This document shows positions 7,412 to 56,084 of a DNA stretch of 64,000 bases, one piece after another. The stretch covers positions 1-64,000 of the forward strand of contig PNNF01000001.1 of the NCBI GenBank assembly GCA_013824085.1. The letters are read 5' to 3'. Below the pieces are notes generated by a model. The model had not been told where the DNA came from, did not search any database, and saw only the letters and a list, made by a program, of their open reading frames with translations. The stretch is from Chlorobiaceae bacterium. GTDB taxonomy: Bacteria; Bacteroidota; Ignavibacteria; Ignavibacteriales; Ignavibacteriaceae. The translations under genes and the position numbers were made by a program. The number at the start of each line of letters is the position of its first letter. Position 1 is the stretch's first letter.

Positions 7412-8388
7412 AATCGTTCCTCAAAATATACACTGAACAAAAAAGTCAAGTTGATAAAAAACTTTCAGTCATTCTAAAAAAACGAGAACCTAAAAGTCTT
7501 TATGGTCCTGCAGATTATATTATTCAAAGTCCCGGAAAAAGACTCCGTCCAATTTTAGTTTTATTTTCAGCAAAAGCAGTTGGCTTAAATTTTAAAGATG
7601 CGTATAATACAGCATTATCAGTAGAACTTTTGCATGATTTCACACTCGTTCACGATGACATAATGGATAACGCAGATACTCGAAGGAATCGTCTCACAGT
7701 TCACAAAAAATGGGATACGAACACGGCTATTTTGGTTGGCGATGTGTTGCTTGCAGTTGCTTACGAGCTACTGACAAAAGATATTAAAAAAAATGAAAAA
7801 AAAATTGTTTCTGCTTTCACAAAAGGTTTAGTTGAAGTTTGCGAAGGGCAGAGTCTTGATAAAGATTATGAACTCAGAAAAGATGTTTCGTTATCGGAAT
7901 ATATTTTTATGATTCAGAAAAAAACTGCAGCGATGTCAGAGATGTGTTGTAAAATTGGTGCTCTGCTTGGTGATGGTAAAAAAGAAGAAGTTAAAGCTCT
8001 CTCAAATTATGGAAAGTATCTTGGAATTGCTTTTCAAATACAGGACGATTTGCTTGATATTGTTGGCGATGAAAACGAATTTGGTAAAAAAATTGGTGGC
8101 GATTTAATAGAAGGAAAAAAAACTTTTCTTTTTATTAATGCGTTAGAAAAATCAAAAGGTATTAGTAAGAAGAAACTTTTGGAAGTAATAAAGAATAAAG
8201 GAATTAAAGAACACGAACTTGAATTCTATAAAAAAATCTACACTGATTTAGGTGTTCTTGAATCAGCAAAAAATGAGATCGAACATTACACAAATAAAGC
8301 TTTGTTAGGATTAAAAATCTTGAAGAAAAAAGAAGACAGAGATTTTTTTACATGGCTGGCATATTCACTAATTAAGAGAACTAATTGA
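7408..8388 (+). CDS. Polyprenyl diphosphate synthase (trans-type)
   Basis: Trans-isoprenyl diphosphate synthase that condenses IPP with allylic diphosphates. The first aspartate-rich motif is DDIMDNADTRR (D83, D84, D87) and the second is DDLLD (D213-D217), followed by GKKIGGDLIEGKKT. The chain length cannot be set with confidence; geranylgeranyl or longer (quinone side chain) products are both possible. Length (326 residues) is normal. The start is TTG in a four-base TTGA overlap with the preceding isomerase stop, with a purine-rich AAGAAGG stretch just upstream, so translation is probably coupled. Confidence 0.94.
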   Translation: MKSFLKIYTEQKSQVDKKLSVILKKREPKSLYGPADYIIQSPGKRLRPILVLFSAKAVGLNFKDAYNTALSVELLHDFTLVHDDIMDNADTRRNRLTVHKKWDTNTAILVGDVLLAVAYELLTKDIKKNEKKIVSAFTKGLVEVCEGQSLDKDYELRKDVSLSEYIFMIQKKTAAMSEMCCKIGALLGDGKKEEVKALSNYGKYLGIAFQIQDDLLDIVGDENEFGKKIGGDLIEGKKTFLFINALEKSKGISKKKLLEVIKNKGIKEHELEFYKKIYTDLGVLESAKNEIEHYTNKALLGLKILKKKEDRDFFTWLAYSLIKRTN

Positions 8389-8654
8389 TGATAGAAAAAA
8401 AAGTAAAAATTGTGAACAGAGCTGGCTTGCATACAAGACCCGCTGCAACAATAGTAAAAATTGCCGCAAAGTATAAATCAGAATTTTATATTTCTAAAGA
8501 TGGATTTAGAATAAATGGAAAAAGTATTATTGGAGTTATGACATTAGCTGCAGAAATAGGAAGCGAACTATTACTAACATTTGATGGAGAGGATGAAATC
8601 TTTATGGCTGAAGAAATTAGCAGTTACATTAGCAGAGGATTTGACGAACCATGA
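8388..8654 (+). CDS. ptsH: Phosphocarrier protein HPr
   Basis: Small 88-residue phosphorelay carrier. The active-site histidine is H15 in AGLHTRPAAT, phosphorylated by enzyme I. S46 in NGKSIIGVM is the site that HPr kinase modifies in Firmicutes and many Gram-negatives. Both canonical residues being present fits with the HPr kinase gene at 55071. The ATG at 8388 overlaps the previous TGA by one base; a TTG one codon earlier is possible. It sits immediately before enzyme I with a four-base overlap. No EIIA/B/C sugar permease component is in the window, so the phosphorelay may be regulatory. Confidence 0.96.
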   Translation: MIEKKVKIVNRAGLHTRPAATIVKIAAKYKSEFYISKDGFRINGKSIIGVMTLAAEIGSELLLTFDGEDEIFMAEEISSYISRGFDEP

Positions 8655-10417
8655 AAGGGTTTAAAGAATTACTTAAATCGTCAAAAAATGTTTTGCAAGG
8701 AATCGCTGCAGCTCCCGGTATGGTTATCGGAAAAGCTTATGTGATTTCTAAAGAAACTATTCACGTCAGTCACGATTCTATTGATGATCCTGAAGAGGGA
8801 ATTAAGAATCTGAATGATGCGATTTCAAAATCCAAGAAAGAACTAAATAAAGTTTTTGGATTTGCTAAAGAAAAAATGGGAACGACTCGTGCAGCTATTT
8901 TTGAAGCTCAACTTATGATTCTCGATGATCCAATTTTAATTGGTCACATAAAAAAAAGAATCAGAGAAGAAAAAAAATTACCCGAGTTTATTGTTGATGA
9001 CGAAATTTCTAAATACCAAAGATTAATGATTGACTCGCATGAACATTATATGCGTGAACGTGCGACTGACATCGAGGATATAAAAAATCGAATAATAAAA
9101 AATCTTCAACAAAAAAGATGGGAATCTAAAATTAGCAAGGACGTGATTGTTGTTAGCGACAATCTTACTCCTGCAGATACAATCCTATTTACAAAAAGCA
9201 ATGTCAAAGCTTATTTAACTGATCATGGTGGATTAACTTCTCACGCCGCAATTATTGCAAGAGCGCTTAATGTGCCTGCTATTGTTGGGCTTCATACTGC
9301 ATCTCAAGTTATCAAGAGCGGTGACACATTAATTGTCAATGGTTTTCACGGATATGTTTTTGTTAATCCATCTCAAAAACAAATCGAATATTTTGAAAAT
9401 AAAATTTCTCACTTAACAGAAATAAATTCTAAATTAAACGAGATTATTGATAAGCCCTCAGAGACACTCGACAACAAACATATTCAATTGCTTTCTAACG
9501 TTGATGTTACTGGCGAAATTGATATGGTGATTGCAAACAGAGCTGAAGGCATTGGTTTATTTAGAACTGAACAAGTGATTGAGGAGCTTGGAGAATTTCC
9601 AGATGAAAATGAACAGACAAGAATTTATACAAATTTAGCCAACAGAATTTATCCCGACTCTGTTACGATTAGAGTTTTCGATATTGGCGGCGATAAAGTA
9701 AAACAACTTCAACTGAAAGAGCAAAATCCCTTTTTGGGACTTCGTGGAATAAGATTCTTGTTGGAGAATCAATCTCTTTTTAAAACTCAAATTAGAGCAA
9801 TATTAAAAGCAAGCATTCATAAAAATATTTTGATAATGATTCCGATGGTTTCGACTATCCAAGAAATTAATCAGAGTAAAGAAATTATTGAATCGTGTAA
9901 ACTTGAATTGATGAAAGAGAACATTCCATTTGACAAGGAGATTAAAATTGGAATAATGATCGAAGTTCCATCAGCGGCAGTAATGACAAGGGAATATGCA
10001 TCTATAGTTGATTTTATTAGCGTCGGAACGAATGACTTGATTCAATATTTAATGGCAGTGGATCGTGGTAATGATATTGTTGCGCCACTCTATCAAGAAT
10101 TTCATCCTGCAGTTTTAAGAACATTAAGTCACATCTTTAAGGAAGCAAAAAGCGTTGGAACAAAAGTTAGTCTTTGTGGCGAAATGGCTTCAGATACACT
10201 TGCCGTTCCTGTTTTAATTGGCTTGGGTTTGGATTCATTTAGTATTTCGCCCTCAACTATTCCTTACATAAAAAAAATAATTAGATCTATCACTTATAAA
10301 AAAGCAAAGGCACTTGCTGAAGAATGCCTTACAATGAGCTCTGAAGAAGAGATTGTTAAATTAATTGAAAAATTCTTCAAAGTGAATTCAATACAAAGAA
10401 CAAGAAATATTTTATGA
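8651..10417 (+). CDS. ptsI: Phosphoenolpyruvate-protein phosphotransferase (PTS enzyme I)
   Basis: Enzyme I (588 residues) transfers phosphate from PEP to HPr. The N-terminal HPr-binding/phosphohistidine part carries the active histidine H198 in GGLTSHAAIIAR. The C-terminal PEP-binding TIM barrel shows GIGLFRTEQ, FDIGGDK, the SVGTNDLIQY block and the active-site cysteine in LCGEMASD. Length is in the usual 570-590 range and nothing is missing. It overlaps ptsH by four bases (ATGA) and is followed by another ATGA overlap with the isomerase gene, so this is one tightly coupled operon. Confidence 0.97.
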   Translation: MKGFKELLKSSKNVLQGIAAAPGMVIGKAYVISKETIHVSHDSIDDPEEGIKNLNDAISKSKKELNKVFGFAKEKMGTTRAAIFEAQLMILDDPILIGHIKKRIREEKKLPEFIVDDEISKYQRLMIDSHEHYMRERATDIEDIKNRIIKNLQQKRWESKISKDVIVVSDNLTPADTILFTKSNVKAYLTDHGGLTSHAAIIARALNVPAIVGLHTASQVIKSGDTLIVNGFHGYVFVNPSQKQIEYFENKISHLTEINSKLNEIIDKPSETLDNKHIQLLSNVDVTGEIDMVIANRAEGIGLFRTEQVIEELGEFPDENEQTRIYTNLANRIYPDSVTIRVFDIGGDKVKQLQLKEQNPFLGLRGIRFLLENQSLFKTQIRAILKASIHKNILIMIPMVSTIQEINQSKEIIESCKLELMKENIPFDKEIKIGIMIEVPSAAVMTREYASIVDFISVGTNDLIQYLMAVDRGNDIVAPLYQEFHPAVLRTLSHIFKEAKSVGTKVSLCGEMASDTLAVPVLIGLGLDSFSISPSTIPYIKKIIRSITYKKAKALAEECLTMSSEEEIVKLIEKFFKVNSIQRTRNIL

Positions 10418-11451
10418 CAAACAAAAACTTTATTAATAAATATGATCTATTAAATCAATTTGATGTGCTAAAAAATTCTTACGAACAAATTGATTATGCA
10501 GCACAAAACAATTATGAAATAAAAAATATTAACACAAAAATAATTTCTAACATTGTTATTTCTGGGCTTGGTGGCTCTGCAATTGCTGGTGAATTTCTAC
10601 AAAATTTTTTGAGAGATGACTTAAAAATAAATTTAATCGTTAATAGAAATTATAATTTGCCCAAGTTTATCGATAAAAATAGCTTGGTGATAATTTCATC
10701 TTATAGTGGAAACACTGAAGAAACGATTTCAGTTTTTAAAGAAGCAATTGAAAAAAAATGTCAGGTTATTGTTCTTTCAACTGGCGGAGTTGTAAAAGAA
10801 AATGCTGAGAAGAATCAACTTGATTTTATTTTACTCAAATCTGGTTATCAACCCCGATACGCTTTTTTTGTGAGCTTTTTCTCATTGCTAAAAATTTTTC
10901 AAACTTTAGAACTCATTGATAATCACGACCAGCTTATAAAATGGGCTTCTGAGTTTATCAAGCTAAAAGGTGATGAGTATTCATCTGAAGAAAATATTGC
11001 GACTTTAAATGCGAAAGAACTAATCGGTTTTCTTCCGATAATTTATTCAGTTGCTGATGTTACAAATTCTGTCGGGAATAGATATAAATGTCAACTTAAT
11101 GAAAACGCAAAAGTACATGCGTTCTGCAATCTTTTTCCGGAATTAAATCACAACGAAATAATTGGCTGGGAAACAGTAACAGAAAATAATTTCAAATCTA
11201 AAGTTGTTAATATTATTGATGATTCATACAACGCACAGATAAAAAAACGTTTCGTAATTACTACGGAATTAATTTCGCAAAGTGGAATTCAAGTTCTCGA
11301 ATTAAAAAGTAAACTTGGCAATTTTAAGGAAAGATTAATTGACTTGATTTATTTGTGTGATTGGATAAGTTTCTACTTAGCAATTTATCGTTCCAAAGAT
11401 CCGAGCGAAATAAATTTTATACATATACTAAAAAATCGATTATCACAATAA
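10414..11451 (+). CDS. Bifunctional phosphoglucose/phosphomannose isomerase
   Basis: A 345-residue protein with two SIS (sugar isomerase) domains of the PGI/PMI family described in archaea and some bacteria, which interconverts glucose-6-P or mannose-6-P with fructose-6-P. The first SIS domain has VISGLGGSAIAGEFL and the sugar-phosphate loop SSYSGNTEETIS. Later blocks include NRYKCQLNENAKVHAFCNLFPELNHNE, split here only to show family character: the conserved asparagine/histidine-rich region before the C-terminal domain. Its ATGA overlap with ptsI links hexose phosphate metabolism and the PTS phosphorelay in one transcript. Confidence 0.88.
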   Translation: MTNKNFINKYDLLNQFDVLKNSYEQIDYAAQNNYEIKNINTKIISNIVISGLGGSAIAGEFLQNFLRDDLKINLIVNRNYNLPKFIDKNSLVIISSYSGNTEETISVFKEAIEKKCQVIVLSTGGVVKENAEKNQLDFILLKSGYQPRYAFFVSFFSLLKIFQTLELIDNHDQLIKWASEFIKLKGDEYSSEENIATLNAKELIGFLPIIYSVADVTNSVGNRYKCQLNENAKVHAFCNLFPELNHNEIIGWETVTENNFKSKVVNIIDDSYNAQIKKRFVITTELISQSGIQVLELKSKLGNFKERLIDLIYLCDWISFYLAIYRSKDPSEINFIHILKNRLSQ

Positions 11452-11460
11452 TATCTTTTT

Positions 11461-14286
11461 ATGAAGAAGTATTTAACTTCAAAAACATTTTTATTTTTTT
11501 TACTTCTTCTTTCTTTTGTCTCTTCGACAAATGCCCAATTATATTTTTTTGGAAGAAATAAAGTTCAATACGAAAAGTTTGAATGGAAAATTTTAAGAAC
11601 AGAAAATTTTGATATTTATTATTACGATGACCTTGATGAAATTGCCCGCATTGGTGCTTATCATGCAGAAGAAGCATACAAAAAACTTCAAGTAGATTTT
11701 AATAATGTAATCACTCGCCGCATCCCGCTCATATTTTACAATACTCATCTGCATTTTCAACAAACTAATGTTACTCCCGGTTTCATTCCCGAAGGTGTTG
11801 GTGGATTTTTTGAATTTATGAAAGGGAGAGTTGTAATTCCTTTCGCGGGAGATTTATCGCAGTTCAGACACGTCATTAGACACGAGATGGTTCACGTTGC
11901 AATGATGAATAAATTATTCCGCATTAAAACTGATCATCGGTTACCAGCAGAAGCTCAGCCTCCACTTTGGTTCATTGAGGGAATAGCAGAATTTCTTTCT
12001 ACTGAATGGGACGCACAAGCTGAAATGGTTTTGCGTGACGCAGTGTTGAATAATTATTTTGTCGGCATTCAGGAGATGTATAAAATTCACGGCACTTTCT
12101 TGATGTATAAAGTTGGGCAAGCTTTTCTTGAATACGTAGCCGAGAAATATGGAGAACAAAAAGTTACACAAATGATTGACAATGTTTGGATGTTTACTTC
12201 GTTCAACAAAGTTATTGAATTTACACTTGGAAAAACTCTTGAAGAGATTGATAAAGAATGGATGGAATATGTTAAGAAAAAATATTATCCTCTGTTAAAA
12301 GATTTCTCAATGATTTCTGCAGAATCAGAAATGATAACTGAAGATGGATTTAATTTTAGTCCTGCATTTTATAAAAAAGATGAAAAAGAATTTATCTATT
12401 ATATCGCCAATAGAAACGGTTATGCTTCTTTGTATCGAGTGGAGATTATAGAAAATGGAAAAAAATTTTCTTCACCAGAAATTGTAGTCCAAGGAGAAAA
12501 AACTGAAGACTTAGAATCGTTTCATCTACTTCAAAAATCTTTAGCAATTTCAAAAGAAGGAATTGCTGCTTTTGTTTCTAAATCAGGACCGACTAATGTA
12601 ATCCATTTTTATTCTATTGAAGAGGATGAGATTATTTCAACTTTTAGAAAAGATTATTTGATTAGTATTAAATCCCCAAGTTTTTCTTCCGATGGAAAAC
12701 GCTTAGTCTTTGAAGCTATTGATAATAAAGGCTTTAGTGACTTGTTTGTTTTGAATATTGAGACAATGAACGAAGAGCGATTAACGAATGATTACTTCAA
12801 TGATAAAGATCCAATCTTTGGAAGAAACGATTTAGAAATTATTTTCTCTTCTGATAGAACCGCTGGAACTAACAAAGGAGTTTACAATTTATTTAACTTC
12901 AATCTTGCCGATTATCGAATTGGCTATATCACAAATTTAAGTTTTAATACAACTGCACCTCAATTAAATCCTGATAAAACAAGTTTAATTTTTTGTTCAG
13001 AGATTGACGGAGTTGATAATGTATGGAAATTATCTATTACCGAAACGGGATTTGAAAATATAATTTATCGCGTAACAAAATTTGTAACAGCTCCATTCTA
13101 TCCACAATTCATCGATTCGTCACGAATAGTTTTTTCTGGATTTGAAAAATTTTCATTCAAGCTTTATTCACATGAAATAAAAAATTATAGCGATTCAATC
13201 GACATAAAATATTTTAACTTTGAAAATACAGAAGGGAAGTGGCTCGCAGATTTTCTTCCTGCTGCATCGCACAAAGAAGAAGTCGAATATGAAAAAGAAT
13301 TTTCTCTCGACTATGCACAGAGCCAAGTTTCCACTGATCCCGTCTTTGGAACCAGAGGCGGCGCAGTTTTTTCATTGAGTGATATGTTGAGCGATGATAA
13401 TTACCTCTTTTTAATCTACAACACCGCAGAAGTTCAAGATGATTTTTTACAGAGCTTCAATGTTTCAGTTACTCGTTTGTCATTGAAAGAACGCTCAAAT
13501 TTTGGATACGGAATTTTTCATTATCGCGGAAGGCGATATGATATTAGAGATTCTGATGAATATTTTTTTGAAAGAAGTTTTGGTGGATTCTTCGTCTTAA
13601 ATTTTCCCCTCTCGACATTTGCAAGATTAGAAGCATCAATGACAGTTTCAAATTCAGATAAGCAAATCTTAACTGGAGTGCTCGAACGAAAAGCTCTGTT
13701 ATGGAGCAACAATGTTTCTTATGTTTTTGATAATTCAATTTGGGCTTCAACGGGACCTATCGATGGGAGAAGATTCAGATTACTTTTAGGATACACAACC
13801 GATGTAAAATTTAGTAACGTAAATTATTATAGCGTCATTGCTGATTACAGAGAATACATCCGACTTGGATTGCGTTCTGCAATTGCTTTCCGAAGTTCAC
13901 TCTATTACAACGAAGGAAAAGAAGCGCGAAGATATTTTATGGGCGGCAGTTGGGATTTAAGAGGATGGCCGCGATGGTCAATAAGAGGCGAGAAACAATG
14001 GGTCTCATCACTCGAAGTTAGATTTCCTCTAATCGATCAGATAAGAATAAAATTTCCATTTATTGATTTAGGATTTTCTGGTTTGCGTGGTGCGCTCTTT
14101 GTTGATGGCGGTGGTTCTTGGGATAGAAAATATACTGAGTCGATCGGTAGCATTGGTGGTGGCTTGCGATTTAATATCTTTGGTGTCCTCGTGCTTCGAT
14201 ATGATATTGGAAAAACTATTCAAGAAGATTTTTCAAAATTACAAGAAGGACTTTTTTATCAATTTTTCTTTGGGTGGGATTTCTGA
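11461..14286 (+). CDS. Outer-membrane protein with peptidase MA-like, beta-propeller and surface-antigen barrel domains
   Basis: A 941-residue exported protein. Residues 1-25 are a signal peptide ending ...TNAQ. Residues about 35-290 resemble the peptidase MA (gluzincin) family, with the zinc motif H141-E142-M-V-H145 and a downstream WFIEGIAEFLS carrying the likely third ligand (E173 or E177). About 310-610 contains TolB/WD40-like propeller repeats (SPSFSSDGKRLVFEA is typical). From about 640 to the end is a BamA/Omp85-like surface-antigen barrel, with GGSWDLRGWPRWSIRG and a final aromatic residue. The natural reading is a cell-surface or periplasm-facing protease tethered to a barrel. Substrate is unknown. 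It heads a three-gene envelope unit. Confidence 0.8.
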   Translation: MKKYLTSKTFLFFLLLLSFVSSTNAQLYFFGRNKVQYEKFEWKILRTENFDIYYYDDLDEIARIGAYHAEEAYKKLQVDFNNVITRRIPLIFYNTHLHFQQTNVTPGFIPEGVGGFFEFMKGRVVIPFAGDLSQFRHVIRHEMVHVAMMNKLFRIKTDHRLPAEAQPPLWFIEGIAEFLSTEWDAQAEMVLRDAVLNNYFVGIQEMYKIHGTFLMYKVGQAFLEYVAEKYGEQKVTQMIDNVWMFTSFNKVIEFTLGKTLEEIDKEWMEYVKKKYYPLLKDFSMISAESEMITEDGFNFSPAFYKKDEKEFIYYIANRNGYASLYRVEIIENGKKFSSPEIVVQGEKTEDLESFHLLQKSLAISKEGIAAFVSKSGPTNVIHFYSIEEDEIISTFRKDYLISIKSPSFSSDGKRLVFEAIDNKGFSDLFVLNIETMNEERLTNDYFNDKDPIFGRNDLEIIFSSDRTAGTNKGVYNLFNFNLADYRIGYITNLSFNTTAPQLNPDKTSLIFCSEIDGVDNVWKLSITETGFENIIYRVTKFVTAPFYPQFIDSSRIVFSGFEKFSFKLYSHEIKNYSDSIDIKYFNFENTEGKWLADFLPAASHKEEVEYEKEFSLDYAQSQVSTDPVFGTRGGAVFSLSDMLSDDNYLFLIYNTAEVQDDFLQSFNVSVTRLSLKERSNFGYGIFHYRGRRYDIRDSDEYFFERSFGGFFVLNFPLSTFARLEASMTVSNSDKQILTGVLERKALLWSNNVSYVFDNSIWASTGPIDGRRFRLLLGYTTDVKFSNVNYYSVIADYREYIRLGLRSAIAFRSSLYYNEGKEARRYFMGGSWDLRGWPRWSIRGEKQWVSSLEVRFPLIDQIRIKFPFIDLGFSGLRGALFVDGGGSWDRKYTESIGSIGGGLRFNIFGVLVLRYDIGKTIQEDFSKLQEGLFYQFFFGWDF

Positions 14287-15419
14287 AAAAAAATATAACC
14301 ATATTATTTTTCTTTGCTTTATTTATAGTTGGTTGTGCAATTCCAAAACTTACTATTCAAGAATCGCTTTTGAAAAATTCAGACAATGATACTTTAGTTA
14401 TTAATGAAAGAATTTTTTTTGTTAATGAATTTACTGGCGATAGCTTGATTAAGAAATGGGAGAATAGAATTAATGGTGGATTTAATTTTAATTCCTTTCT
14501 CGGAATTGATTCTCTAATTTTTGTAAATGATCTTTCGGGAAGAATTTATTGCTTCAACATTTTTACAGGAAAATTGATTGGTGGAATAAAATTAAAAGGT
14601 TCTGTCTATTCAAAACCAATTATTAGAAATTTTGACATTATTTTTCCACTGATAAATAAAGGCGCAGAGACAAGTAGTCTAGTTTTTTATGATTTATACA
14701 ATTCTAAAATTAATCAAGAAGTAGAAATAAAAGATCTTATCACCAATGAGATATTACTGCATAAGAATGGAATTGTTTCTGTTGGAAAAAATGGATCTAT
14801 TTTTCAGCATGATTTTAGAGGAAACGTAATTCTGGGAATTAATTCAAATTCAAGAATCAACTCAAATCCAGTTTTAATAAAGAATAATTTATTTGTTGCA
14901 AATGAATTTGGAGAAATTTTAATAATAGATCTTGGTGCAAAAAAAATAATTGAAAGAATAAAAATTTCTGATCATCCATTAAATCATTTGTCAGCTGATA
15001 ACCATTTGATATTTGTTGGTGATTCAAATGGGGAATTATTCAGTTTTGATACTCAAAAAATGAAAATACGTTGGACATTTAAAACAAACTCAAATATTAT
15101 TATGAGTCCCGTTACTGACGAAAAATTTGTTTACTTCGGAAATCTTTCTGGAATGTTCTACGCATTGTATAAAAAAACTGGATTTGTAAAATGGAGTATG
15201 CAATTAGGAACTTTGTTTAACGTCTCTCCATTAGTTACTGCAGATAATATTTTTATCCCAGATCTCGATAAAAGACTCTTCGTTGTTGATAAATATTCAG
15301 GTGAAAAAGTAAATGAAATTGCCATTGATGGAAGATTAAAGATTACGCCTTACTTAAAATCAAATATATTGGTAATTGGTTTTGATGAAGCCGAACTGGT
15401 GGGTTATGAAATTTATTAG
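14274..15419 (+). CDS. PQQ-type beta-propeller lipoprotein (BamB-like)
   Basis: A 381-residue predicted lipoprotein: an N-terminal hydrophobic stretch ends in a lipobox IVGC (cysteine about 20). The rest is built of repeats such as RIYCFNIFTGKLIG, ELFSFDTQKMKIRWTFKTNSN and MFYALYKKTGFVKWSMQLG, the W/F-rich blades of PQQ-like quinoprotein propellers. BamB of the outer-membrane assembly machine has this fold, and the gene follows a barrel protein, but orthology is not shown. The start is a GTG giving a 13-base overlap; a CTG at 14283 overlapping the upstream TGA is an alternative. Confidence 0.75.
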   Translation: MGFLKKNITILFFFALFIVGCAIPKLTIQESLLKNSDNDTLVINERIFFVNEFTGDSLIKKWENRINGGFNFNSFLGIDSLIFVNDLSGRIYCFNIFTGKLIGGIKLKGSVYSKPIIRNFDIIFPLINKGAETSSLVFYDLYNSKINQEVEIKDLITNEILLHKNGIVSVGKNGSIFQHDFRGNVILGINSNSRINSNPVLIKNNLFVANEFGEILIIDLGAKKIIERIKISDHPLNHLSADNHLIFVGDSNGELFSFDTQKMKIRWTFKTNSNIIMSPVTDEKFVYFGNLSGMFYALYKKTGFVKWSMQLGTLFNVSPLVTADNIFIPDLDKRLFVVDKYSGEKVNEIAIDGRLKITPYLKSNILVIGFDEAELVGYEIY

Positions 15420-16089
15420 TCTCTTTTTTTTAATAATTTTTTTTTCGTCGTCAACTCGAGCAATAGTTTTAGAAAATATTTTTCTCAACAAGGCTGAAAA
15501 AAGATTAGATGCAGATACTACGAAAAAATATGAAGATGAAAATTTTCTTAATCAAAAAAAAATAATTTTTAACGAGTGGGGAAGAGTAGCCGCATTTGAT
15601 ACTCTCCAAAAACCGATGGAAGAATCCTTCAGAACTGAAAATTTAGAGTTTGATTATTTTATTATTAATTCAATTCCAGCCGATGCAACTGTTTTCTATC
15701 GAGATCAGATTTTGGGAATGACGCCATTAAGAATTCCTAAAACGATAGACGAAGTAGATTTAAGAAAAAATAATTTTCGTAACACAAAATTGGAATTAAT
15801 TCCAGAGGAGAAAATTAAATTAGTTACTTTAGTTAATTATAATCAGAATGAAGAAAAAGAATTTTATCAAACTACTGCTTTTAAAATATTAACAAGTTCA
15901 ATGATTGTTCTCGGTGCTACAGCTGCTTACTTAAAACTCGAAGCAGATGATTATTATGAACGATTTCAGGCTACGAATGATAGATCTTATTTGGATGAGA
16001 CGAAAAAATTTGATATTTACAGCGGAATTTCATTCGGATTATTGCAAATTAATTTTGGTTATATTATTTACAAATTCTTGATTGAATAA
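15406..16089 (+). CDS. PEGA-domain-like membrane protein
   Basis: A 227-residue protein with an N-terminal signal or anchor (residues 1-about 20), then a segment FIINSIPADATVFYRDQI followed by LGMTPLRIP, which matches the PEGA repeat found in surface and envelope proteins. Two hydrophobic stretches near the C-terminus (about 155-175 and 205-225) look membrane-spanning. The ATG at 15406 was chosen over 15376 because it directly precedes the hydrophobic signal; it overlaps the propeller lipoprotein gene by 14 bases. Function is unknown; the context suggests a partner of the two envelope proteins before it. Confidence 0.6.
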   Translation: MKFISLFFLIIFFSSSTRAIVLENIFLNKAEKRLDADTTKKYEDENFLNQKKIIFNEWGRVAAFDTLQKPMEESFRTENLEFDYFIINSIPADATVFYRDQILGMTPLRIPKTIDEVDLRKNNFRNTKLELIPEEKIKLVTLVNYNQNEEKEFYQTTAFKILTSSMIVLGATAAYLKLEADDYYERFQATNDRSYLDETKKFDIYSGISFGLLQINFGYIIYKFLIE

Positions 16090-54772: not shown

Positions 54773-55084
54773 ATGAATATCAAAATCACGGCACGAAAAT
54801 TCAGGGCTCACGATTCATTGAGAGAATTCATTAAAGATGAAGTCTCTTCCTTAGAAAAATTTTACGATCAAATTCTCGATGTTGACGTAAAGTTAAGTTT
54901 TGTCGATACTCAAGTAAATATTAAAACAGTAGAAATTATAGTAAAAGTACCAAAGCAAATATTAGTCGCTTCATCTGACACTGATGATTTTAAAAAATCT
55001 GTAAATGAAAGTATAGAAAAAATAATTAGACAATTAGATAAGTTGAAGACTAAAAAAAATAATTATAAAAATGAAATTGATTGA
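54773..55084 (+). CDS. Ribosome hibernation-promoting factor (short HPF/RaiA family)
   Basis: A 103-residue protein with the single S30Ae/HPF fold: MNIKITARKFRAHDSLREFI, VDVKLSF, KTVEIIVKVPKQ and DDFKKSVNESIEKIIRQLDKLK. It binds the decoding centre of idle ribosomes. It lacks the C-terminal dimerisation domain of long HPF. GGAGG stands seven bases before the ATG, one of the few strong Shine-Dalgarno sites here. It overlaps hprK by 14 bases, so ribosome hibernation and HPr kinase are cotranscribed. Confidence 0.92.
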   Translation: MNIKITARKFRAHDSLREFIKDEVSSLEKFYDQILDVDVKLSFVDTQVNIKTVEIIVKVPKQILVASSDTDDFKKSVNESIEKIIRQLDKLKTKKNNYKNEID

Positions 55085-56084
55085 CGAAAAATCAATTTCG
55101 AAAAAAGAATTTATTACCGTTAGATTCTTTTACGAAAAAGTTAGAAATAATTTTAATCTAAAACTTCTCTCTGATGAGTCTGGATTAGAAAAAAAAATAA
55201 CTGATAGAAATATTCATCGACCGGGACTTGCATTAGCGGGCTTCGTTGAACTTTTTACTTTTGCGAGAGTGCAAGTCTTCGGTAATACAGAGATCACGTA
55301 TCTAAAAAACTTATCGGAAGAGGAGAGAGTAAAATCTCTGACAAAAATATTTCGATTCGATATTCCCTGCATAATACTTTCGAATAACATCGATCCATTT
55401 CCTGAAATGCTTGCGTTATCTAATCAATATAATATTCCGATATTCAACACACATTTAGCGACCACTAAGTTAATCTATTTCATAAGCGATTTCTTAGAAG
55501 ATCAGTTTGCATTGAGAGCTGCTGTACACGCTTCCTTTGTTGATGTTTATGGAGTCGGAGTTTTGTTCGTTGGGCGATCGGGCATTGGAAAGAGTGAAGT
55601 AGCCCTCGATTTAATCGAAAGGGGACACCGACTTGTAGCCGATGATGTAATTATCATTACAAAAAAAGGTCCAGGTATTTTAATTGGAACGGGAACTGAA
55701 CTCGTAAAACATTTTATGGAAATTCGTGGATTGGGATTGATCGATATCGCAAAGATGTTTGGTATTCGTGCAATTCGTTTTCAGAAAAGATTGGAAGTAA
55801 TTGTAGAATTAGAAAATTGGGATAAAGATTCTGATTACACACGCACAGGATTGGATGAAAGGAATACTACTATATTAGATGTCGAAATTCCACATGTGAA
55901 ATTGCCAATCATTCCCGGAAAAAATATTACTGTAATTTCTGAGGTGATTGCACTCCATTATTTGTTGAAACATTATGGATACGATGCAGCCAAAGTCTTT
56001 CAAAGGCGATTAGAAGCGAGCATCTCCAATAAATCTAACAACATGGAAAGAGGTGTCGATTATTTTGAACATGATTTTGAATAG
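55071..56084 (+). CDS. hprK: HPr kinase/phosphorylase
   Basis: A 337-residue bifunctional enzyme that phosphorylates or dephosphorylates HPr on S46. The N-terminal domain (about 1-140) is the HPrK regulatory domain. The catalytic part has Walker A GRSGIGKS (168-175), ADDVIII after RGHRLV, and the HprK signature MEIRGLGLIDIAKMFG. Its substrate HPr (8388, S46 intact) is encoded about 47 kb away. The upstream HPF gene overlaps by 14 bases; an intergenic space of about 130 bases follows. Confidence 0.95.
   Translation: MKLIDEKSISKKEFITVRFFYEKVRNNFNLKLLSDESGLEKKITDRNIHRPGLALAGFVELFTFARVQVFGNTEITYLKNLSEEERVKSLTKIFRFDIPCIILSNNIDPFPEMLALSNQYNIPIFNTHLATTKLIYFISDFLEDQFALRAAVHASFVDVYGVGVLFVGRSGIGKSEVALDLIERGHRLVADDVIIITKKGPGILIGTGTELVKHFMEIRGLGLIDIAKMFGIRAIRFQKRLEVIVELENWDKDSDYTRTGLDERNTTILDVEIPHVKLPIIPGKNITVISEVIALHYLLKHYGYDAAKVFQRRLEASISNKSNNMERGVDYFEHDFE

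Follow-up and report, generated by a model that had tools for sequence, protein, structure and literature searches.

Proteins that join a beta-propeller to an Omp85 barrel have been in print since 2014. Heinz and Lithgow (PMC4104836), in the passages considered here, set them apart as WD40-Omp85, one of ten Omp85 subfamilies, describe them as uncharacterised, liken them to a fusion of BamA and BamB, and mention neither an HExxH peptidase in the subfamily nor any partner genes; their scheme also contains a 'Metallo' subfamily, in which an N-terminal PF00149 domain is called a metalloprotease and a propeller goes unmentioned, which puts the idea of a protease-Omp85 fusion in print as well. PlpD (PL-Omp85) carries a patatin lipase and a POTRA domain on its barrel, with the enzyme domain staying periplasmic, according to the sections of PMC11116518 considered here, which also count WD40-like proteins among several Omp85 subfamilies that are not well characterised. 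BepA (YfgC), an M48 metallopeptidase, is presented in the part of PMC8423444 considered as a zinc peptidase of the periplasm that takes part at the BAM complex both in the biogenesis of outer-membrane proteins and in their degradation. Here we analyse a stretch of 64,000 nucleotides, called the window below (positions 1 to 64,000 of contig PNNF01000001.1, forward strand; assembly GCA_013824085.1, Chlorobiaceae bacterium, GTDB family Ignavibacteriaceae), in which three consecutive genes, the trio, encode a predicted peptidase-propeller-Omp85 protein (the class-A protein), a BamB-like lipoprotein and a PEGA-type protein (Table 1). Like WD40-Omp85, the class-A protein has a TolB-like propeller ahead of an Omp85 barrel and no POTRA domain, and it is assigned there by architecture, not by membership of the 2014 sequence cluster; like PlpD, it has an N-terminal enzyme domain fused to the barrel, but a gluzincin peptidase and a propeller stand where PlpD has patatin lipase and POTRA. 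PF00149, which we take to be the metallophosphoesterase family, is not a gluzincin family. No gluzincin-propeller-Omp85 protein is described in the titles and abstract openings that our searches of an open-licence library (preprints excluded) retrieved, and the portions of PMC12611786 covered mention no propeller, TolB, metalloprotease or peptidase. Within the literature searched, the propeller-Omp85 fusion is already known; what is new is its gluzincin domain, its set of paralogues and its constant partners.

The original prediction had read a gluzincin HExxH protease (H141, E142, H145), a TolB-like propeller and a BamA-type barrel from the sequence of one polypeptide; profiles, motifs and predicted folds bear out a gluzincin domain, a TolB-like propeller and an Omp85-type barrel in one chain. 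The HExxH lies at exactly the predicted residues, and W170, E173 and G174 add a putative third-ligand motif. Both motifs are invariant in an alignment of 21 class-A proteins (A1), as is Q26, and in one of 63 diverse members of all classes (A3), whose 10 invariant columns include Tyr216 as well as the H, E and H of the first motif and the W, E and G of the second. Retention of the HExxH in relatives had been set beforehand as a test of the protease idea: the motif pair is present in 148 of 148 homologue rows from four paralogue classes, with no loss, the rows being what remained of 200 profile hits after repeats were removed by their C-terminal stretch, and some of them still showing one gene again in a truncated locus (L001/L054, L003/L055, L002/window). 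A class C devoid of the active site was considered and rejected, as the profile alignment had misplaced the HExxH in all 8 class-C rows; read directly, 7/7 genes have HE[FT]TH and WFAEG, and the remaining row (L003) shows the L055 gene again in truncated form. When compared with the peptidase MA family, the window's domain is barely above the Peptidase_MA_2 cut-off (32.5 bits on the N-terminal piece alone, cut-off 32.4; 28.7 on the whole protein), and 62 of the 63 family members match at E<=0.001.

Because propeller matches swamped the fold searches with the full-length model, a separate model of the peptidase domain was made with 63 sequences (AlphaFold2, AF2), giving a predicted local distance difference test score (pLDDT) of 90.9. 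The top Foldseek match of this model is collagenase H (E 9.1e-5), and only two matches, both collagenases, fall below 0.001. In VIA-align it scores Z 17.4 against a Grimontia (Vibrio) collagenase (3.4 A over 231 residues) and 17.0 against the M30 lugdulysin. Collagenases and lugdulysin take ranks 1-16, and most of the lower ranks, which reach Z 13.0, are M1-type aminopeptidases and leukotriene A4 hydrolases; we take the M9, M30 and M1-type matches to be gluzincins. Two of the 50 VIA-align rows have titles that name no peptidase: 7edx (TFIID) and 7vpq (a coronavirus spike and its receptor, presumably aminopeptidase N). The closest solved folds are those of clostridial and Vibrio collagenases (M9) and of lugdulysin (Z 14.5-17.4), secreted enzymes with 11-16% identity to the domain and without a propeller or barrel; the domain profile aligns both motifs with collagenase G (E 0.0016). 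The protease idea thus survives these tests, every row keeping the motif and the predicted fold resembling that of gluzincin-type zinc peptidases, and by motif pair and predicted fold the N-terminal domain is of gluzincin type (Peptidase MA superfamily). Residues 137-241 (window 11869-12183) also resemble flagellinolysin (NCBIfam NF033876, E 1.5e-7, far under the cut-off).

The propeller superimposes on TolB-type chains at Z 26 (VIA-align; 2.3-2.5 A over 242-247 residues). Solved TolB chains, whose propeller has six blades, are matched by sequence profile at 2.1e-8, PD40 reaches 22.3 bits (cut-off 20.9) in the whole-protein scan, and NCBIfam TolB (E 7.6e-17, 61.3 bits) stays under its equivalog cut-off of 343.15, the propeller being the common part. 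The barrel belongs to the Omp85 superfamily by profile, PF01103 (cut-off 24) scoring 40.4 bits when residues 610-941 are scanned by themselves and 39.3 bits in the genome search; the whole-protein scan leaves Pfam Omp85 unlisted even so, and routine annotation may therefore miss such barrels. A terminal Phe ends 128/128 class-A rows, at least one of which (L112) is a contig-cut end, and a GGxxxxRG-type pattern is present in 123 of them; in the window it reads GGSWDLRGW, which resembles the L6 (V)RG motif of Omp85 proteins, with G828, G829, S830, W831, D832, R834 and G835 invariant in A1. Mean column identity is 0.76 in the peptidase domain, 0.78 in the barrel and 0.60 in the propeller, with domain limits set by hand. 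POTRA profiles match 10 times in the genome at E<=0.001 and nowhere on the window's contig (C1). The class-A protein is unlikely to be the cell's BamA, because the same genome has a separate BamA-like gene, whose single frame of 831 amino acids combines an Omp85 barrel with four POTRA matches.

The trio genes overlap by 13 bases (class-A and lipoprotein genes) and 14 bases (lipoprotein and PEGA-type genes), just as had been read from the open reading frame (ORF) coordinates; the longest ORF of the PEGA-type frame starts earlier, at TTG 15376. Gene order proved to be conserved as well. After 8 repeats had been dropped from 120 fetched class-A loci, 112 were left; the lipoprotein gene comes next in 93 of the 97 with at least 1300 bases downstream, and where at least 2300 bases are available (88 loci) the PEGA gene is present in 83 and both partners in 82. 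The partner profiles drew on the window and on as many as 20 of these loci (L034-L053), which therefore match partly by construction. The trio is seen in most of the 20 class- and phylum-level loci, picked for their class-A scores and spanning many families; judged from these sequences it is old and has been kept across many families of the phylum. An assembly artefact or one-off fusion is rejected by homologues of similar length in many assemblies.

As for the partners, the BamB-like lipoprotein stood up well: PQQ_2 matches at 49.3 bits (cut-off 27.6), Cys21 is invariant in 18/18 aligned sequences, and its profile matches solved BamB at 2.7e-30, behind designed propellers and further chains of PQQ type. 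It shares with BamB the PQQ-type propeller and the lipoprotein nature, but with 72.9 bits it falls well short of the 285.2 set for the BamB equivalog, and it belongs to a conserved gene trio. A strict lipobox pattern is found in 62/106 of the lipoproteins, and a looser rule (Cys after a hydrophobic run), chosen after the strict result was known, in 98/101. The PEGA label held only in part: seven of the 15 proteins in alignment A2, which includes one class-C neighbour that is not a true partner homologue, match at E<=0.01, whereas the window protein itself is sub-threshold (PF08308, 12.6 bits, cut-off 20.8, E 0.13), so that the label rests on relatives. Its C-terminal pair of hydrophobic stretches is conserved and would point to a membrane protein. 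A likeness between the PEGA-type protein and the DUF5683-like protein beside class C was sought and found unconvincing (19% identity).

The original prediction had called the protease-to-barrel fusion the most unusual architecture in the window, a view that has to be revised after the survey of relatives: in addition to the precedent of 2014, a family member occurs in 59/59 genomes (the window's own and 58 relatives). Homologues and the trio occur in many families of the phylum, and we therefore regard this as a widespread family. Class-A homologues share 49-61% identity over nearly full length and were counted by hand in 48 of the 59 genomes (one as a fragment only, some split over contigs). 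Of 296 genomes sampled from the phylum, 277 have a match at E<=0.001, many of them weakly (~1e-3 to 1e-24), which may reflect the propeller alone, and about 71 reach class-A-level scores (>=558 bits) by hand count. Three plasmid records matched, the best from Salinibacter ruber (55% coverage, 28% identity; annotated 'basic secretory protein-like protein'). A tree was built from 75 proteins, of which 57 belong to class A (the window's own among them), 8 to B, 7 to C and 3 to D; the four classes each form one group with support of 0.999-1.0. Classes had been assigned by score and locus before the tree, for which 56 of the 128 class-A rows were kept.

Neighbours differ between the classes, those of B and C having been sampled within one order, with neighbour families named on L054 and L055 only and grouped elsewhere by BLAST. 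Class B has RNase R and a DUF748-match gene upstream in 8/8 loci, the latter two genes away; the match (33.4 bits) is under the Pfam cut-off of 50, and we take DUF748 to be AsmA-like. Class C follows PorV and a protein bearing a C-terminal domain (CTD) in 7/7 loci and PorU (C25) in six, the fetched stretch of the seventh (L063) beginning after the PorU position, with a DUF5683-like gene next in all seven; by its neighbours the class-C paralogue sits in a type IX secretion cluster. For class D no conserved neighbour was found in 3 loci.

Tentatively, we favour the reading, suggested by sequence, models and analogy, that the class-A protein is a metalloendopeptidase anchored in the outer membrane and facing the periplasm, where with dedicated partners it would trim or clear proteins of the outer membrane or the cell surface. 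The Omp85-type barrel would anchor it in the outer membrane, the TolB-type propeller would sit at the periplasmic mouth in place of the POTRA domains of BamA, and the gluzincin domain would act in the periplasm, processing or clearing outer-membrane or surface-bound proteins during or after their passage to the outer membrane, whereas the BamB-like lipoprotein and the PEGA protein may position it and bring substrates. Such a role would be comparable to that of BepA beside BAM, but within its own Omp85 barrel; BepA is a separate protein of another peptidase family with no barrel fusion. Zinc binding, cleavage, complex formation and substrates are what we infer for the class-A protein, and the periplasmic orientation is suggested by analogy with POTRA domains and with PlpD. 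Besides the invariant metal-site motif, the predicted folds and the conserved trio, the reading is supported by the class-C paralogue in a PorU-PorV cluster, beside an outer-membrane export system, by the peptidase and barrel being the most conserved parts, and by the precedent of an Omp85-fused enzyme domain staying periplasmic in PlpD, as far as the sections of PMC11116518 go.

Several observations weigh against it. Six of the 88 loci miss one or both partners (L120 and L144 the PEGA gene, L195 the lipoprotein gene, L146, L181 and L182 both); judging by the last three, the class-A protein can apparently exist without either partner. Class A is missing from 11 of the 59 genomes by hand count and is therefore not indispensable. 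The barrel is poorly modelled (full-length model, block pLDDT 24-78), too weakly for a strand count or for the propeller-barrel junction, and nothing in the phosphotransferase-type genes upstream of the trio points to proteolysis in the envelope.

The function usually assigned to Omp85 proteins is the insertion or translocation of proteins (PMC4104836, main text), and the class-A protein might do the same; the constant company of class C (PorV, the CTD-bearing protein, mostly PorU) and of class B (the DUF748-match gene) would fit such a role. We consider it unlikely though worth taking seriously, since the class-A protein has no POTRA domain that we could find, no fixed cargo gene is seen beside the class-A trio, and the class-B and class-C loci, being from one order, may reflect operon inertia, with a DUF748 match under its cut-off. 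That the barrel delivers peptidase and propeller to the cell surface, as a protease feeding on or defending against external protein, would agree with the collagenase-like fold and with the surface delivery once proposed for PlpD (PMC4104836, main text), but the PlpD enzyme domain was later found to stay periplasmic (PMC11116518, sections considered), and old conservation with a fixed lipoprotein partner better fits a housekeeping envelope role, so that we regard this as improbable. A non-catalytic peptidase fold serving as a binding platform in a structural or Tol-Pal-like envelope link is very improbable, for although the propeller resembles TolB and catalysis is predicted only, pseudo-enzymes usually lose such residues as the motif pair and the Tyr conserved in 63/63.

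A more speculative reading, which we think unlikely, takes in the whole phylum: a family of Omp85 machines in which a gluzincin protease and a TolB-type propeller replace POTRA would have diversified into four or more paralogue classes. Three of these would each be linked to a different outer-membrane route (A with a lipoprotein of BamB type and a PEGA protein of its own, B near a bridge protein resembling AsmA, C in the type IX cluster), and each machine would couple client insertion or export to proteolytic maturation.

Table 1. Features of the trio locus, its neighbours and the paralogue clusters (window coordinates unless a locus is given).
Feature	Position	Strand	Basis or remark
Class-A peptidase-propeller-Omp85 gene	11461..14286	+	941-aa ORF; homologues and alignment A1 (n=21)
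Signal peptide	residues 1-25, 11461..11535	+	Sequence and A1; predicted cleavage before Gln26
Gluzincin peptidase domain	residues 26-285, 11536..12315	+	Peptidase_MA_2, AF2, fold matches
HExxH motif	H141-H145, 11881..11895	+	Invariant in A1 and A3
Putative third zinc-ligand motif, W170..E173-G174	11968..11982	+	Invariant in A3; aligns with WFDEG of collagenase G
TolB-type beta-propeller	residues 286-590, 12316..13230	+	VIA-align, PD40, profile match to solved TolB chains
Omp85-type barrel	residues ~656-941, 13426..14283	+	PF01103 on residues 610-941; ends in Phe
GGSWDLRGW motif	13942..13968	+	Resembles Omp85 L6 (V)RG motif
BamB-like PQQ-type propeller lipoprotein gene	14274..15419	+	381-aa ORF; predicted lipidation at Cys21
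PEGA-type protein gene	15406..16089	+	227 aa from ATG at 15406; signal peptide, two C-terminal hydrophobic segments
HPr gene	8385..8654	+	Upstream, same gene run; named by resemblance
Phosphotransferase system (PTS) enzyme I (PtsI) gene	8651..10417	+	Pfam match; conserved upstream neighbour
Phosphoglucose/phosphomannose isomerase-type gene	10414..11451	+	bact-PGI_C match; directly upstream of trio
Class-B paralogue cluster	L054:2-9813 (G000 contig C15:28000-43000)		Tightly packed; DUF748-match gene, RNase R, paralogue
Class-C paralogue cluster	L055:3-10729 (G000 contig C2:90000-105000)		PorU-type C25 peptidase, PorV, CTD-bearing protein, paralogue, DUF5683-like gene

The window has a G+C content of ~32%, and the records of close relatives are mostly titled as metagenome-assembled genomes of Ignavibacteria, Ignavibacteriales or Bacteroidetes. 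Among 61 named loci that offer 3 kb or more of upstream sequence, repeats being kept in, PtsI lies upstream of class A in 55 and the isomerase in 44. An HPr kinase/phosphatase lies elsewhere in the window (55071-56084; PF07475, 216 bits) and an EIIA-type gene elsewhere in the genome; together with HPr and enzyme I this suggests a regulatory phosphotransfer chain.

With its conserved peptidase active site and its two constant partners, what might pass for another BamA-like barrel becomes a testable enzyme, and the link of class C to PorU and PorV would make that paralogue a candidate component of type IX secretion in these bacteria.

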